DNA of 64,000 nucleotides. Origin: Acidobacteriota bacterium (GTDB lineage Bacteria > Acidobacteriota > Polarisedimenticolia > J045). Below are positions 8,886 to 56,089 of this stretch, in pieces. A program made the position numbers and the translations under genes. The notes under the pieces are model-generated. The model did not search any database. It was not told where the DNA came from and was given only the letters and a program-made list of their open reading frames with translations. The DNA is taken from positions 62,001 to 126,000 of the forward strand of contig JAUZRX010000015.1 of the NCBI GenBank assembly GCA_030949985.1, in the 5' to 3' direction. Each line of letters opens with the position of its first letter. Within the stretch, counting starts at the first letter, position 1.

Positions 8886-9419
8886 ATGGTCTTTGCCGAG
8901 AATACCGGCCTTCCCAACGTCCGCTTCGGCCGGGTCGACTGCAAGTGCTCGACCGACGGCGACGATGAGGGGGTGCTGCCCTGCAACGGTGGTGACTGCG
9001 ACGACTCGGACCCGGAGGTGGCCCGGGGTCGGACGGAGATCTGCGACGACGGCAAGGACAACGACTGCGACACGCTCGCCGACTGCAACGACCCCGACTG
9101 CGCCGAGTCGGGTTTCCCCCCGGAGGAGATCGCCGGGCTGCGCTTCGAAGCCGATGGACAAACTCTGCTCTGGGACGCGACCCCGCTGACCGACGGCTAC
9201 GACCTGGCCCGCGGGAAGGCGGGCGACCTGCTGGCCATGGGTTCGTTTGCCTGGGGCGAATGCCTGGCTTCCAACATCGCCACCACCACCGGGACCGACG
9301 TCCAGACGCCGCCTTTCGGCAATGCCTACTACTACCGGGTGCGCGGTCGCCGGCCGACCCGCCTGGTGGCGAGCTGGGGAACCCCCCTCAGGGACGACAC
9401 GCTGACCGGTTGCCCCTGA
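8886..9419 (+). CDS. MopE-type Cys/Asp-rich metal-binding protein, probably an N-terminally truncated remnant
   Basis: The 177-residue frame carries the MopE-like motif twice in degenerate form: CNGGDCDDSDPEV followed by EICDDGKDNDCD and CNDPDC, a calcium- or metal-binding pattern found in surface and secreted proteins. The C-terminal part (GLRFEADGQTLLWDATP through YYYRVRG to a terminal CP) resembles the degenerate Fn3-like domain common at the end of acidobacterial secreted proteins. There is no signal peptide, the ribosome-binding site is weak, and stops occur in the frame just upstream. The usual N-terminal domains are missing, so this is either a decayed gene or one started at the wrong place. 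Confidence 0.55.
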   Translation: MVFAENTGLPNVRFGRVDCKCSTDGDDEGVLPCNGGDCDDSDPEVARGRTEICDDGKDNDCDTLADCNDPDCAESGFPPEEIAGLRFEADGQTLLWDATPLTDGYDLARGKAGDLLAMGSFAWGECLASNIATTTGTDVQTPPFGNAYYYRVRGRRPTRLVASWGTPLRDDTLTGCP

Positions 9420-38899: not shown

Positions 38900-39120
38900 G
38901 AAAACCGATCGGCAGATCCCCCTGTCGGGGAGTGGCTGCCCCGGAGGCCGTTGAAGCCGGTACGGCCAGGTGGGTGCCCTCCCGCCGGTTTAGGCTTCCT
39001 CCCGGCGGCCGGAGCCTCGGGGAGGCCTGCGCACCGCCGGCGGAGTCCGGGCTCCCGGGAACAAGCTGTTGGCTCAATCGCTCCAGGGGGCGGGCCACCC
39101 GGGGGACTGCCGATCGGCCC
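38900..39120 (-). ncRNA. ssrS: 6S RNA
   Basis: The 283-base gap between zapA and rny folds, on the minus strand, into a 6S RNA-like rod. The ends pair perfectly: CCGATCGGCAG (39117-39107) with CTGCCGATCGG (38915-38905). The 5' strand then has GGCAGTCCCCCGGG, like the conserved CAGUCCCC of the open bubble, and the 3' side has GGAAGCCTAAACC, like the E. coli GAAGCCUUAAA. 6S RNA binds the housekeeping RNA polymerase holoenzyme as a promoter mimic. A location next to zapA is the known arrangement in many bacteria. The ends given are approximate; a T-rich GGTTTTC follows the closing stem. Confidence 0.85.
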
Positions 39121-50294: not shown

Positions 50295-51443
50295 ATGGCG
50301 GACTGGAAGTCACCGATGCGGGCGGACCCCAGCGAGTGGCTGGTGCTCAACGCTTCGGCGCCGATTCGTTATCGGCTCCTGACCGAGTTGCATTCTCTCA
50401 CGACGGCGGATCCGAATGTCGGTGAGCTGCAGAAAGAAGTGCTGAGCTGGAAGGCCGGCAAGCAGGAACTGCGTTACCAGCGCCAGGACGGCTCGTGGGG
50501 CGGGATGATCCACGGTGGCGATCCCAAAAAGGCCGAGCGGAGTACCGAGAAGATCCTCTGGGGCCTGTACGAGTTGGGCTGGGACCGGGAATTCAAGGAG
50601 ATTCGCAAGGCGGCCAAGCTGCTCAAGAGCTTTCTGACCCAGAAGAGAGATCTCAACCTCTACGAATTCAACGCCCAGGTCAAGCAGGATCCGGTGCGTG
50701 AGCGCCACTTGCGCTGGTTCCTGAGGATCTGCGCCCTGGGCCTGCTTCTGCGGGGGGGATGGCACAAGGAGAAGAAAATCTCCGACGCGGTGGCGGACCT
50801 GCTCGACCGGGTGACGGCGTTCGTCTCGGACCCGGTTTCCCGTCATCCCGTCGAACACGTCGGCGTGGGTCTGCCGCAAATCCGGCGGGAGGCGATGCGG
50901 GACGGCTACTGCTTCATTCCCGACCTCTACATGCTGCGGGTTTTCGCCCACTACCCGGGCATCCTCGATTCGGCGGTTCTGCGAAGCCGCCTGAAGAAGA
51001 TCTTCGACTACGTGCTCAGCGTCGACTACCAGGAACTGACCCCCGACATCGGGGCCATTCGCACGGTACGCGGGCCGACGCCCCGGGGATGGGGCATCGA
51101 ACTGCATCCCCTCGAGACCTACCTCGAGAAGGGATATCTGGACGAATTGCTCTATCTCCTCGAGCAGTTCGCCCGGCTGGGGCTGATCAACCGCTATCCG
51201 CGGCTGATGGGGTACATGGACTGGCTGTTGGCCCAGCAGGAGAAGGACGGCCGTTGGGACCTGTCGGCGAAGTATTTCGGCGGCAAGCCCCTCTACGGTT
51301 CCTGGCTGCGCCTCGAGCGGGACTGGAAGAGCCCGACCCGGCGCATTTCCGACGTGACTTTCCGCATCATGTTGATTCTCAAGTACCAGTGGGATCGCCA
51401 GGTGCAGATGCTCAACCGCGGGGCCGATGTCTACGGCTTCTGA
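50295..51443 (+). CDS. Squalene-cyclase/prenyltransferase-like alpha/alpha-toroid protein of unknown function
   Basis: The product is 382 residues with no signal peptide. Repeats of the terpenoid-cyclase/protein-prenyltransferase toroid type are suggested by DGSWGG (near residue 70), KILWGLYELGWD, EKGYLDELLYLLEQFARLGL and a late EKDGRWDLSAKY, which resemble QW-type motifs. The DxDD cyclase motif was not found. ATG at 50295 is preceded by GGAGGATTGGG. The gene lies between carA and ispG and overlaps the latter by 17 bases; a link to isoprenoids is suggested only by position. Confidence 0.6.
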   Translation: MADWKSPMRADPSEWLVLNASAPIRYRLLTELHSLTTADPNVGELQKEVLSWKAGKQELRYQRQDGSWGGMIHGGDPKKAERSTEKILWGLYELGWDREFKEIRKAAKLLKSFLTQKRDLNLYEFNAQVKQDPVRERHLRWFLRICALGLLLRGGWHKEKKISDAVADLLDRVTAFVSDPVSRHPVEHVGVGLPQIRREAMRDGYCFIPDLYMLRVFAHYPGILDSAVLRSRLKKIFDYVLSVDYQELTPDIGAIRTVRGPTPRGWGIELHPLETYLEKGYLDELLYLLEQFARLGLINRYPRLMGYMDWLLAQQEKDGRWDLSAKYFGGKPLYGSWLRLERDWKSPTRRISDVTFRIMLILKYQWDRQVQMLNRGADVYGF

Positions 51444-53484
51444 TTCCGCGGCGCGAGGTTCCCGGGTGGGGAGCGATGCCGCGCTGCGCCTGTTTCCGGC
51501 GCGTTGTCCGGCCCGGGAGGTGGCTATCGGCGATCTGACGATCGGCGGCGGCCACCCGATCGCGGTCCAGTCCATGACGACCACCCCCACGTCCGACGCG
51601 GCGGCGACGGCGGCCCAGGTCTGCGCCCTGGCGCGGGCCGGTTGCGAGATCGTTCGGGTGACCGTGCCCTCCGGATCCGATGCGCGGGCGTTGCCGGAAA
51701 TCCGCCGGCGGATGCGCGCCGAGGGAGTGGCGGTGCCGCTGGTCGCCGATATCCACTTCACACCGCGCCTGTCTCTCGACGTGATCGAGCATGTGGAGAA
51801 GGTGCGGATCAACCCCGGGAATTTCGCCGATCGTCGGAGCCTGAAGGGGGAGGTTTACGACGAGAGCCGTTGGGAACGGGACGTGGAGCGGGCCCGCTCC
51901 CTCTTCGCGCCCCTGGCCCGCCGGGCCCGCGAACTGGGCGTGGCCTTGCGCATCGGCGTCAATCACGGGTCGCTCTCCGACCGGCTGGTCCAGCGCTTCG
52001 GAGACAGTCCCGAGGGCATGGTGGAATCGGCCCTGGAGTTCATCACCTTCGCCGAGGAGGAAGGCCTGCGGGACCTGGTGATCTCGATGAAGGCCTCGAT
52101 TCCCCAGGTCATGGTGCGGGCCTATCGCCTGCTGGCCCGACGCCTGCTCCAGCGCGGCGAACTCTACCCGCTGCACCTGGGCGTCACCGAGGCCGGGGGC
52201 GGCGACGACGGCCGCATCAAGTCCACCGCCGGTATCGCGACCCTGCTCGGCGAGGGCCTGGGGGACACGGTGCGGGTCAGTCTGACCGAAGACCCCCTCG
52301 AAGAAATCCCCGTGGCGCGCGAACTGGTCGCCCGCTTCGGCCGTCCCGTCGCCGGAGAGGTCGACGAGGTCGCCGTCGACATCGAAGAGTGCCGCGACGG
52401 TCTCGACCCCTCACGCCGGGAGACGGCCGAACTGGCCCTGGGGCCCGCGCTGGCGATCGGCGGGGCGAACGTGCCGGCGGTGGAACTGACGTTGCCGGCG
52501 ACGAGCGCGGCCGGTCAGCTGGACGTCCTCGAGAGTCTCGAGCCCGGCGTCGAAGTGGTGGACCTGCGGGCGGAGTCCGTCGACGACCTCGTCACGGCCC
52601 TCGACGTGATTCCCGCCGGCGCGGAGGCTCGCTGGACCTGGGGTGTCACGCTGGAGACGGGAGTCGCGGAATCGATGCTGGCCGACCCGGCCCTGCGCGG
52701 GCGGGTCGCCTCGACGGTGGGGCGGGTGGCGGTGGTGGCGGGATTGCCGGCCGTCGATCTTCCCCCGCTGCTCGAAAGGCTCGCCGCCGAACTGCCCCGC
52801 GTGCCCCTGTTGGCGCTGGCACGGGTCGAAGGGGCGTTCGACGCCCGGGCCGCCGAGCGGCTCGGGGCCCTGGCCGGGGAATGGGCGGGGCGCGTACCGG
52901 TGCTTGCGGCCGGAGTGGTGGCGGCGCGGGCGGAAGACCGCCTGCCGGCCCATCGCCTGCTGGCTGCGGCCCTGGACCGGGCCGGCGCCCGCCTGCCCCT
53001 GGTGCTGACGGACAGGGTGGAGGCGGACGAAGATCTGCGGCTGGGTCCGGCGGGCCGGCTGGCTCCCCTGCTGCTCGATGGCCAGGGCGACAGCCTGCGG
53101 CTGGAGTGGGGTCCGGGGCATCGGGCCGCCGCCCTGGTGGATATCGCCCACCGCATCCTCCAGGCTTGCCGTCGCCGGCTCGAGCGGGCCGAATTCATCG
53201 CCTGCCCCTCTTGCGGCCGCACCCTCTTCGACCTGGAGGCGACCACCGCCCGGGTGCGGGAACTGACCGGCCACCTCAAGCTGAAAATCGCCGTGATGGG
53301 TTGCGTGGTCAACGGTCCGGGCGAGATGGCCGACGCGGACTACGGCTACGTGGGCTGGGGCGAGGGCAAGGTGGCCCTGTTCGTGGGCCGCGAGATGGTG
53401 GAAAAGGACATTCCCGCCGCCGAGGCGCCCGCCCGCCTGGTGGCGTTGATCCGCAGTCGGGGGGACTGGCAGGACCCAGCCTGA
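51427..53484 (+). CDS. ispG: 4-hydroxy-3-methylbut-2-en-1-yl diphosphate synthase (IspG), long form
   Basis: This Fe-S enzyme of the MEP pathway has 685 residues, nearly twice the E. coli length. The N-terminal TIM barrel has PIAVQSMTTTPTSDAAATAAQV, VPLVADIHFTPRL and VRINPGN. The C-terminal Fe-S domain has FIACPSCGRTLFDLE and MGCVVNGPGEMADADYGY with the three cluster cysteines. Between them, about residues 290-590, is a large insert rich in Ala/Leu, resembling the extra domain of plant, Chlamydia and Bacteroidetes IspG. ATG at 51427 lies in the end of the upstream gene; the exact start is uncertain because no strong ribosome-binding site is visible. Confidence 0.93.
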   Translation: MSTASDSAARGSRVGSDAALRLFPARCPAREVAIGDLTIGGGHPIAVQSMTTTPTSDAAATAAQVCALARAGCEIVRVTVPSGSDARALPEIRRRMRAEGVAVPLVADIHFTPRLSLDVIEHVEKVRINPGNFADRRSLKGEVYDESRWERDVERARSLFAPLARRARELGVALRIGVNHGSLSDRLVQRFGDSPEGMVESALEFITFAEEEGLRDLVISMKASIPQVMVRAYRLLARRLLQRGELYPLHLGVTEAGGGDDGRIKSTAGIATLLGEGLGDTVRVSLTEDPLEEIPVARELVARFGRPVAGEVDEVAVDIEECRDGLDPSRRETAELALGPALAIGGANVPAVELTLPATSAAGQLDVLESLEPGVEVVDLRAESVDDLVTALDVIPAGAEARWTWGVTLETGVAESMLADPALRGRVASTVGRVAVVAGLPAVDLPPLLERLAAELPRVPLLALARVEGAFDARAAERLGALAGEWAGRVPVLAAGVVAARAEDRLPAHRLLAAALDRAGARLPLVLTDRVEADEDLRLGPAGRLAPLLLDGQGDSLRLEWGPGHRAAALVDIAHRILQACRRRLERAEFIACPSCGRTLFDLEATTARVRELTGHLKLKIAVMGCVVNGPGEMADADYGYVGWGEGKVALFVGREMVEKDIPAAEAPARLVALIRSRGDWQDPA

Positions 53485-53637
53485 GCGGGTCGGCAGTTGT
53501 GGCCGAAAGCGGTCGGACGCAGTGTCCGAGCTTCGGTCGAAAGTTCCCGGTGGCCCCTGCCGCAGCGCTCGTCGCCGATCCCGTGGTTTTCATGTAAGTA
53601 GCTGTTCCCACGGTTCTTGCGCTTGATTTCCAGGTCC

Positions 53638-53653
53638 TGGCACGGAGGTTGAA
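53638..53653 (+). promoter_or_regulatory. Sigma-54-type promoter, small RNA 1
   Basis: TGGCACGGAGGTTGAA matches the -24/-12 consensus TGGCACG-N4-TTGCW at all positions except one (TTGA for TTGC). The spacing between the GG and the -12 dinucleotide is exact. Expected start is near 53664. It lies 154 bases after ispG in a region without genes. Confidence 0.6.
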
Positions 53654-53663
53654 AAAGGAGGGG

Positions 53664-53803
53664 CTGCTTGGACAGGTCGCCCGCCCCCCGGTATGCGGGA
53701 GCCGTTCGAAAGTAGCGGCAGGGCGGCCGGAAAGCACTCCTCTCCTCTCAGGACCTCCGCACCCCTCCAGGACCCCGGCCCCCCACCGGGGTCCACCCTT
53801 TTT
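53664..53803 (+). ncRNA. Candidate sigma-54-dependent small RNA 1
   Basis: This is a predicted transcript of about 140 bases from the -24/-12 promoter to the terminator at 53770-53803. It contains the core CTCTCCTCTCAGGACCTC (start of the 24-base element at 53740-53763) shared with small RNA 2. The core is C/T-rich and could pair with GGAGG-type ribosome-binding sites of mRNAs. Frames within it are not conserved with those of the second copy, so it is unlikely to encode a protein. No known family was recognised with certainty. Confidence 0.6.
53770..53803 (+). terminator. Intrinsic terminator of small RNA 1
   Basis: A perfect 9-bp stem GGACCCCGG/CCGGGGTCC with a seven-base loop is followed by ACCC and five Ts (53799-53803). 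Confidence 0.8.
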
Positions 53804-54006
53804 GTCTTCCGCCCACTCTCCGTTCGCTCGAGCCCGGTCCCCGGGAAGGCTCCCGCGGGTGGACCCGGAGCCTGCCGGGATTCGGCCACTTCGTCCGTGC
53901 CATCGGCCAGGCCGACCGGCCGCCGGGGTGTCGCCGGATTCGGGGAGAGCTCGGAGATATCGCTCAAGTCATTGAAATAAAACGCTTTGACTTTTTCCCG
54001 GGAGGC
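53804..54006 (+). other. Spacer between the two small-RNA cassettes
   Basis: I see no gene in these 203 bases. The right half contains an AT-rich stretch (about 53970-53996, including GAAATAAAACG and CTTTGACTTTTTC), unusual in this GC-rich window. Its CGCTTTGACTTT resembles GCGCTTGATTT upstream of the first promoter (about 53620-53630). It could be an activator or IHF-type binding region for the second promoter. Confidence 0.35.
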
Positions 54007-54022
54007 TGGCACGGGTCTTGGA
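54007..54022 (+). promoter_or_regulatory. Sigma-54-type promoter, small RNA 2
   Basis: TGGCACGGGTCTTGGA matches TGGCACG-N4-TTGCW except for one base (TTGG for TTGC). The expected start point is near 54033. The flanks differ from those of the first promoter, so the match is not just a recent duplication. Confidence 0.62.
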
Positions 54023-54032
54023 ATAGAGGATG

Positions 54033-54160
54033 GCGCCAAGCCACTCCGGCCCCGCGCTGGGACGGGACAGAAAGGAAAGCCGGAGTCGGCTCCGTCAACC
54101 TCTCCTCTCGGGACCTCCGCACCTGGGACCTCGGCCACCCACCGGGGTCCCTACTCTTTT
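54033..54160 (+). ncRNA. Candidate sigma-54-dependent small RNA 2
   Basis: This is a predicted transcript of about 128 bases ending at the terminator 54125-54160. It has the 24-base core at 54100-54123, identical to that of small RNA 1 except A to G at position 11. Upstream is a local hairpin CCGGAG-TCGG-CTCCG (about 54080-54094). The remainder of the two RNAs differs, so the shared C-rich core and terminator are the conserved functional parts. It lies convergent to dnaB, whose stop is 37 bases further on. Confidence 0.62.
54125..54160 (+). terminator. Intrinsic terminator of small RNA 2
   Basis: A 10-bp stem GGGACCTCGG/CCGGGGTCCC (one T-G pair) with a seven-base loop is followed by TACTC and four Ts (54157-54160). 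Confidence 0.75.
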
Positions 54161-54196
54161 GGGGCCGGATATCAAGTCACGGGCCGGGGGAGCGCG

Positions 54197-55603
54197 TCAG
54201 TTCGACGACCACTCCTCCTCGCGATTCTGGAACAGGGTGTAGTCCTTGACGAAGTAGAGCGGGACGGTGCCCGTGGGCCCGTTCCGCTGTTTGGCCACGA
54301 TCAATTCGGCCTGTCCTTCGAGGCCTTTTTCGATGACCTTCTCGGGATCCTTTTCGTAGACTTCCGGGCGGTAGATGAACATCACCACGTCGGCGTCCTG
54401 CTCGATGGCGCCCGACTCGCGGAGGTCGGAGAGTTGGGGGCGGTGATCGTTCTGACGCTGATCCGGCGCCCGGGAGAGCTGGCTGAGGGCGACGACGGGA
54501 ATTTTCAACTCCTTGGCGATGCCCTTGAGCGAACGGCTGATCTCTGAGATCTCCTGCTGCCGGCTTTCCACCCGGCCGCCGAGACGCATCAGCTGCAGGT
54601 AGTCGATCACCAGCAGGCCCAGGTCTTCCTGTTTCTTCAACCGGCGGGCCTTGGCGCGGATCTCCATCGGGGTCAGCCCGGGGGTATCGTCGATGAACAT
54701 CCGGCAATGGGCCAGTCGCTCGTAGCCCTGGGTCAAGCGCTCCCACTCCTCGGCGCTGAGCCGACCGGTGCGGACTTTCTGGGAGGGCACCATGCCTTCG
54801 GCGGAGAGCAGGCGGAAGAAAAGCTGCTCGGCGGACATTTCCAGGGAAAAGACGCCGACCGCCAGTTCTTCCCGGGTCGCCGCGTACTGGGCGATGTTCA
54901 GGGCCAGCGCGGTCTTGCCCATCGAGGGGCGGGCGGCGACGATGATCAGGTCTCCCGGCTGGAAGCCGGAGGTCATCCAGTCGAGCTTCTTGAAGCCCGT
55001 GGAGACCCCGGTGACCATCTCTCGTCTTTCGGAAAGCTCTTCGAGGGTTTCGAGCCCCCGCTGGGCCACCTGGGGCAGCGGCTGGAAGCCGCCCCGCCGG
55101 CCCACGTCGGAGAGCTGGAACAAGCGGCTCTCGGCCTCGTCGATCATCTCGGCGCCGGAGAGTACGCCCTTGGCGGCCTCGGCCCGCAGGTTCTCCGTCA
55201 CGGCCAGCAGTTGCCGCAGCAGGGAGCGGTCGAGGACGATGTCCGCGTAGCTCGAGACGTTGGTCGTCAGGGGCAGGGAATCGACCAGCGAGGAGATGTA
55301 GGCGGCGCCGCCGGCCTGTTCGAGCAGGTTCAGCCGCTCGAGTTCCCTGCGCAGGGTGACCAGGTCGATGCCCGTCGCCGGCAGGGCCGAGCCGAGGGAG
55401 ATCATCGCCGCGAAAATGGCCCGATGGGCCGGCCGGTGAAAATCGTCCGGCCGGAGCTTTTCCGCCGCGGCGTCGAGGGCGCTGGGATCGAGGAGAATGG
55501 CGCCGAGCACGGCCCGTTCGGCCTGTTCGTCCCAGGGCTGGGAGATCTGCTCGTCGGGGGGGGGTGGGGTGGCTGGCGGCCGGTGGCGGGGTTGGGTGCT
55601 CAC
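54197..55603 (-). CDS. dnaB: Replicative DNA helicase DnaB
   Basis: This is a hexameric helicase of 468 residues. The N-terminal domain has EQAERAVLGAILLDPSALD and GGAAYISSLVD; the C-terminal RecA-like domain has Walker A ARPSMGKTALALN, VGVFSLEMSAEQL, Walker B LLVIDYLQLM and DLRESGAIEQDADVVMF. GTG at 55601-55603 was chosen as giving the normal family N-terminus; the frame is open for another 120 codons through the rnpB region, which is not protein-coding. Divergent from rnpB. Confidence 0.95.
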   Translation of the reverse strand: MSTQPRHRPPATPPPPDEQISQPWDEQAERAVLGAILLDPSALDAAAEKLRPDDFHRPAHRAIFAAMISLGSALPATGIDLVTLRRELERLNLLEQAGGAAYISSLVDSLPLTTNVSSYADIVLDRSLLRQLLAVTENLRAEAAKGVLSGAEMIDEAESRLFQLSDVGRRGGFQPLPQVAQRGLETLEELSERREMVTGVSTGFKKLDWMTSGFQPGDLIIVAARPSMGKTALALNIAQYAATREELAVGVFSLEMSAEQLFFRLLSAEGMVPSQKVRTGRLSAEEWERLTQGYERLAHCRMFIDDTPGLTPMEIRAKARRLKKQEDLGLLVIDYLQLMRLGGRVESRQQEISEISRSLKGIAKELKIPVVALSQLSRAPDQRQNDHRPQLSDLRESGAIEQDADVVMFIYRPEVYEKDPEKVIEKGLEGQAELIVAKQRNGPTGTVPLYFVKDYTLFQNREEEWSSN

Positions 55604-55687
55604 GGTGGAGGCAAACCTCAGGCAGGGATCAGGCAAGAAAACGGGACGGCAATTTACCATGGACGGCGCGTCGGGCCGGGGTGCGGG

Positions 55688-55693
55688 TAGAAT
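55688..55693 (+). promoter_or_regulatory. -10 element of rnpB
   Basis: TAGAAT lies 8 bases before the first base of the predicted RNase P RNA, the correct distance for a start point at about 55700. No clear -35 is visible. Confidence 0.5.
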
Positions 55694-55700
55694 AAACCCT

Positions 55701-56089
55701 TGCCGGGCGGAGTGCCGGAGAGGATCGCGGCGCGTTTTTAGAGCGTGTCGAGGAAAGTCCGGACTCCACAGGGCAGCGCGCTGGGTAACGCCCAGGCGGG
55801 GCGACCCGACGGAAAGTGCAGCAGAGAGCAGACCGCCAGCGGCCGGCTCCCCGGAGTCGGTGCGGGCAAGGGTGAAACGGTGGGGTAAGAGCCCACCAGT
55901 GCCCCGGGCGACCGGGGTAGCTTGGTAAACCCCGCGTGGAGCAAGGCCAAATAGGGGGACCATGGCGTGGCCCGCGTCGTCCCCGGGTAGGCCGCTCGAG
56001 GCGGAGGGTGACCTCCGGCCCAGATGAATGATCCTCCCCCCCCGTGGGGAACAGAATCCGGCTTACGAGGTGCTCCGCCCGGCCCTTTT
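55701..56089 (+). ncRNA. rnpB: RNase P RNA (bacterial type A)
   Basis: This is the catalytic RNA that matures tRNA 5' ends. Conserved region I reads GAGGAAAGTCCGGACTCCAC (about 55750-55770). GGGTGAAACGGTGGGGTAAG and GAGCCCACCAG follow, and region V is seen as AGATGAATGATC with ACAGAATCCGGCTTA. P1 is formed by GCCGGGCGGAGTGCC (55702-55716) and GGTGCTCCGCCCGGC (56069-56083). A short T run (56086-56089) follows the closing stem and likely ends transcription. Confidence 0.95.

Follow-up and report, generated by a model that had tools for sequence, protein, structure and literature searches.

The gap downstream of ispG in the window (the whole analysed stretch of 64,000 nucleotides) raises the question of what two similar units, lying between two protein genes, encode and how their products act. 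As read from the sequence, this gene-free gap covers positions 53485-54196 (712 nt) and is flanked by ispG (GcpE, PF04551; stop at 53484) and by dnaB, which is on the minus strand (54197-55963) and convergent to ispG and to both units, themselves in the + direction. In each unit, a -24/-12 (sigma-54) promoter is followed in turn by divergent 5' RNA of about 70-80 nt, a 24-nt core and an intrinsic terminator. The preliminary description had seen in them two same-direction sigma-54-type small RNA (sRNA) cassettes with a C-rich core; our direct reading reproduced its promoters, cores, terminators and 712-base gap to the base, and the joint retention of promoter, core and terminator in 8 genomes supports its interpretation. 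The features are as follows.

53511..53531, strand. : weak candidate activator-binding palindrome, GGTCGGACgcagtGTCCGAGC, about 125 nt upstream of promoter A
53638..53653, + strand: sigma-54 (-24/-12) promoter of unit A, TGGCACGGAGGTTGAA; predicted start 53664
53664..53803, + strand: small RNA A, predicted, about 140 nt, with a divergent 5' stem-loop region, core and terminator, from anatomy and folding
53740..53763, + strand: core of unit A, 24 nt, CTCTCCTCTCAGGACCTCCGCACC
53770..53803, + strand: intrinsic terminator of unit A, whose stem covaries across 11 units
54007..54022, + strand: sigma-54 (-24/-12) promoter of unit B, TGGCACGGGTCTTGGA; predicted start 54033; kept in G001_B
54033..54160, + strand: small RNA B, predicted, about 128 nt, with a 5' stem (GCCACUCCGG/CCGGAGUCGGC), core and terminator
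54100..54123, + strand: core of unit B, 24 nt, CTCTCCTCTCGGGACCTCCGCACC, identical to the family consensus
54125..54160, + strand: intrinsic terminator of unit B, ending 37 nt short of the convergent dnaB stop

Within the window, the core reads CTCTCCTCTC(A/G)GGACCTCCGCACC, the two copies differing once (A53750 versus G54110). Since it is found twice at up to 3 mismatches, both times as an exact match, versus 0.01 occurrences expected in shuffled sequences, the repeated core is not due to chance. The promoter pattern TGGCACGNNNNTTG, at up to 1 mismatch, has 3 matches in the window versus 3.8 expected, which is not significant by count alone; we take the promoter as real because its position is conserved in relatives.

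The relatives were found by a DNA search of 60 related genomes followed by inspection, which identified the layout in G001 (same genus, two tandem units), G002, G005 (two loci) and G010; a covariance model search added G004, and reading downstream of ispG added G007 and G011. Promoter, core and terminator are thus present as an ordered set in 11 units from 8 of the 12 genomes of the same GTDB family, which answers affirmatively whether core and promoter recur together in relatives. In seven genomes (G000, G001, G002, G004, G005, G007 and G011), no more than about 300 nt separate the ispG stop from the core of a downstream unit; in G010 the unit lies about 1.9 kb away from ispG and on the other strand, and the second unit of G005 (L030) is located between histidine-kinase-like and kinase/TPR-like genes. 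Among the remaining four genomes, no unit is present in G009, where only a short gap separates ispG from dnaB; in G006 and G008 the contig stops shortly past ispG, and for G003 the query used gave no ispG match. Tandem pairs were seen only in the genus of the window, with orthologs of both small RNA A and small RNA B in G001 (L026); between these two species the A units resemble each other, as do the B units, which places the duplication before their split.

Some observations concern the neighbouring genes and RNAs. The IspG protein has 685 aa (51427-53484, +), and the GcpE Pfam model matches it as two separate stretches, as would be expected if an insert separated the catalytic parts, the arrangement of the long IspG form. 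An RNase P RNA gene (RF00010; 55708-56081, +) is found just past dnaB and on the other strand, where it overlaps the long upstream portion of the open frame of dnaB; because RNase P RNA is also near dnaB in G001, G002 and G010, the order ispG - sRNA - dnaB - rnpB appears largely conserved. The window also holds a 6S RNA (RF00013) match at 38951-39077 (-), which at 50 versus 46.4 bits is barely above the gathering score.

Outside the GTDB family, nothing convincing was found with the core at up to 2 mismatches in 41 genomes of the class, or with the model and a relaxed pattern in 396 genomes of the phylum. The covariance model (R1), which comprises core and terminator, gave many weak matches over those 396 genomes; the 24 that we inspected outside the family were without core or promoter and corresponded to terminators, coding sequence or C-rich chance matches. 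One match with 2 mismatches (G018:C23) falls within a coding-like stretch, and weak additional matches in G000, G001 and G010 lack both promoter and core. In about 85,000 species genomes, the near-exact core was found in acidobacterial MAGs and once in Nocardioides; the latter, an exact but lone match in an unrelated phylum judged on the core alone, was taken as chance. The regions downstream of ispG in 16 other genomes of the class contained no sigma-54 site on the ispG strand. Because the class, phylum and 85,000-genome searches convince only within the family, these sRNAs look lineage-specific, and a strongly diverged homologue may exist elsewhere.

The conservation footprint indicates which parts of the units matter. 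Among 8 representative units, mean pairwise identity was 0.77 for the promoter (shuffled, 0.29), 0.83 for the core (shuffled, 0.35) and 0.52 for the post-core/terminator region (shuffled, 0.30), whereas in the middle region it was 0.26, the level of shuffled sequences (0.27), in agreement with the preliminary description, according to which the rest of the transcripts differ. The intrinsic terminator, a GC hairpin followed by a U run, is maintained in relatives; over the 11 units, 93.6% of the cells of its stem are paired, versus at most 63% in slid controls, and compensating changes on both sides occur in 7 cells. Judged by this comparison, promoter, core and terminator are under purifying selection, and a conserved start signal, RNA segment and stop signal around a free middle is the pattern of a small RNA gene. 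Folding of the full RNAs gave z values of -1.2 and -1.1 relative to shuffled sequences, neither clearly better. The units are non-coding, since in most of them no in-frame start codon leads into the core, which itself carries insertions of 1 nt (a T, in G004) and 2 nt (in G007 and G011); the units share no conserved reading frame, and gene decay, a possibility that the preliminary description had raised, does not account for the region.

The units are apparently switched on through a promoter of the sigma-54 type. A -24/-12 promoter is at a fixed place before the RNA in all 11 units and, in relatives with the common core type, this promoter lies 88-114 nt before the core. The sigma-54 consensus is TGGCACnnTTnTTGC, with C at -12 (PMC8743547); this C is present in 4 of the units and missing in 7, the window units having A and G, and the G007 and G011 units have consensus -24/-12 sites (TGGCCCGGCGCTTGC and TGGCCCGGTCCTTGC). 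No sigma-70-type promoter was found in the ispG-dnaB gap, and the window's own genome encodes RpoN (E 1e-62). A motif search found no common activator site upstream of the units: untrimmed, it was dominated by the ispG coding tail, and after trimming it returned suggestive GGAC...GTCC palindromes, similar to the candidate at 53511-53531, upstream of the units of some relatives, not all.

Other sigma-54-type sites came to light on the way. G010 carries a good one, TTGGCAACGCGCTTGCA (L028:9224, +), which faces away from the sRNA promoter towards an uncharacterised reading frame; the palindrome GCCGGACAG-N9-CTGTCCGGC between the two promoters (L028, about 8996-9022) is a possible shared activator site. 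Downstream of this second site there is a core-like CCCCTCCTCTCGCGGAACC (L028:10027-10045, +), followed by a terminator-like hairpin before dnaB. In two genomes of the class (L066 and L077, near position 1501), sigma-54-type sites lie directly upstream of prepilin-like genes with a type IV pilin/pseudopilin signature, suggesting control of pili by sigma-54 in the class.

The core is located immediately before the terminator and is near-invariant in 9 of the 11 units. The other two, in G007 (L090) and G011 (L088), both downstream of ispG and belonging to genus g7, have a diverged core, CTCCTCTCTCGGGGTTCCCGCACC, at the matching position, in which GGGGUUCCC stands in for the GGACCUCC half; promoter, position, CUCCUCUC, GGG and CCGCACC are retained, and ACCUCC is gone. 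Since the CUCCUCUC half is kept in g7 and the GGACCUCC half is replaced, the seed, if it is one shared part, should be CUCCUCUC, pointing to this stretch as the common functional part of the core. Its mean unpaired probability is 0.74, versus 0.44 for the 5' region.

We compared the units with known RNAs. Covariance models of the 4227 families of Rfam 15, at the gathering score, had no match to the units in the window or in relatives; elsewhere, the sequences matched RNase P, tRNA and 6S models only. Acido-1 and Acido-Lenti-1 are non-coding RNA motifs described in Acidobacteria (PMC2864571), a group credited with 4 sRNA families in one count (PMC9029176). The earlier suggestion that our units could be one of these motifs did not hold: neither RF01686 nor RF01687 matches at the gathering score, or at E values up to 5 on the region, and the relatives have no match at the gathering score either.

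The closest likeness in the RNA itself is to NfeR1/alpha-r14 of Sinorhizobium meliloti and relatives, which has ultraconserved CCUCCUCCC anti-SD motifs, divergent stems and silences mRNAs at the translation start (PMC10746234). Both are about 120-140 nt long, with an ultraconserved unpaired C-rich anti-SD motif, diverging stems and a proposed block of mRNA translation. They differ in phylum, in promoter (sigma-70 in NfeR1, sigma-54 here) and in architecture: instead of three hairpins, each with an unpaired CCUCCUCCC, every RNA studied here has one different core, CUCUCCUCUC-RGGACCUCCGCACC, before the terminator.

With regard to wiring, the Qrr RNAs of Vibrio are several paralogous sigma-54-activated sRNAs per genome with a conserved core, and CrcZ and NrsZ are also under sigma-54 control. 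The Qrr RNAs act additively or redundantly (PMC7602753); they share with our units the paralogous sigma-54-type sRNA genes with a common core, and differ in the core itself; our units have no Rfam match to them. Control linked to two-component systems and sigma-54 is described for the genes of GlmY/GlmZ, CrcZ and NrsZ (PMC7602753, PMC8743547), RNAs that differ from ours in targets and mode and, again, give no Rfam match to our units. The Pxr sRNA of Myxococcus and relatives (PMC5568312) is also a short RNA with an apparent sigma-54 promoter, confined to one suborder, at a fixed intergenic position, with tandem paralogs in one lineage that each have their own sigma-54 promoter (PMC5568312). Pxr, however, has conserved stem-loops (SL1/SL2) and adjoins the sigma-54 response regulator gene nla19, whereas here the stems are unconserved and the neighbours are ispG and dnaB; the scan of about 85,000 species genomes found no near-exact core in myxobacteria. 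This is a previously unlisted sRNA family of a known kind, a member of no family tested, and the best reading is that it would work like alpha-r14/NfeR1 and be wired like Qrr or Pxr.

We therefore favour, with a probability of about 0.62, standalone trans-acting sRNA genes, duplicated in tandem and activated by sigma-54, whose core pairs with Shine-Dalgarno (SD) regions and blocks translation. Tandem duplication would have produced two standalone genes for trans-acting RNAs of about 130-140 nt, both turned on upon a signal by an enhancer-binding activator of sigma-54 RNA polymerase. Each RNA would consist of a lineage-specific 5' stem-loop, a mostly single-stranded C/U-rich core and a terminator hairpin. 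The core, above all its CUCCUCUC half, would pair with purine-rich SD regions of several mRNAs, possibly assisted by Hfq, whose gene is present (2e-18), and translation of these mRNAs would be blocked, probably by covering their ribosome-binding sites. That the units are transcribed, depend on an activator, bind Hfq and act on mRNA targets by antisense pairing at ribosome-binding sites is inferred from sequence data. The duplex of the core with GAGAGGAG has a predicted energy of -11 to -15 kcal/mol in all units. With the AAGGAGGU site it has -10.5, weakening to -7.8 in genus g7, which has lost the anti-SD-like half, ACCUCC. Across the 12 genomes, extended complements of the core did not outnumber the matches of a reversed control pattern; the search thus supports no target, and pairing would be short if mRNAs are targets. 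Besides the sRNA genes, the own genome has a single such complement, at window 55707-55723, which was taken as chance and overlaps the RNase P RNA gene at its 5' end.

The same near-invariance over about 24 nt would also suit a protein. It is unlikely that, rather than pairing with mRNAs, the sRNAs serve as decoys whose core titrates an RNA-binding protein, CsrA-like or other, as CsrB/RsmZ or CrcZ do; decoy RNAs under two-component control exist, for example CrcZ (PMC7602753). All insertions fall in the loop of a mini-hairpin that the core might form, UCCU-(CU..C)-RGGA, which would suit a protein-binding site, and a CsrA gene is present in the genome. Against this, there is a single core per RNA, and titration of CsrA is not family-wide, since GGA motifs exceed single-base shuffles yet are near the expectation of dinucleotide shuffles and number 0 in G007 and G011, unlike the many GGA motifs beyond chance that all members of a CsrB/RsmZ-type family would have.

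A core that mimics the anti-SD of the 16S rRNA might instead compete generally for SD sequences and broadly damp translation, with no specific targets, when sigma-54 is active. Two stretches of the common core type, CUCCU and ACCUCC, resemble an anti-SD, and the duplex of this core type with a consensus SD is strong; this reading is nevertheless improbable, because ACCUCC is lost in g7, conservation reaches past the anti-SD parts (CGCACC) and a very high cellular abundance of the sRNAs would be required.

We consider a local cis function, in which transcription or the RNA of the units affects expression of ispG or dnaB, very improbable: most units are directly downstream of ispG, and dnaB is convergent in the window and head-on beyond the unit in G002, but strong terminators separate the units from dnaB, and the second G005 copy and the G010 copy are placed away from ispG as described above. 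Least probable of all is that there is no functional RNA and that a chance promoter-like match, a repeat or a coding remnant explains the units, for which only the promoter count in the window speaks, against a promoter, core and terminator jointly kept in 8 genomes with nothing conserved between them and no conserved frame.

Beyond the antisense reading that we favour, a more far-reaching proposal, which we regard as doubtful, is that this lineage-specific sigma-54 sRNA family is the main post-transcriptional output of a sigma-54 signalling pathway, its core being an SD-region competitor or a dedicated site for an RNA-binding protein. If that were true, the diverged, position-matched core of genus g7 would illustrate how an sRNA seed has been re-targeted in nature along with its targets or its protein partner. 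The swap of GGGACCUCCG for GGGGUUCCCG in one genus, with the rest kept, offers a natural experiment on how a core and its partners change together. The Acidobacteriota are a widespread, little-studied phylum with very few listed sRNA families, and this one is clearly delimited; predictions exist for its promoter type, its transcript ends and its functional core, which makes it directly testable.
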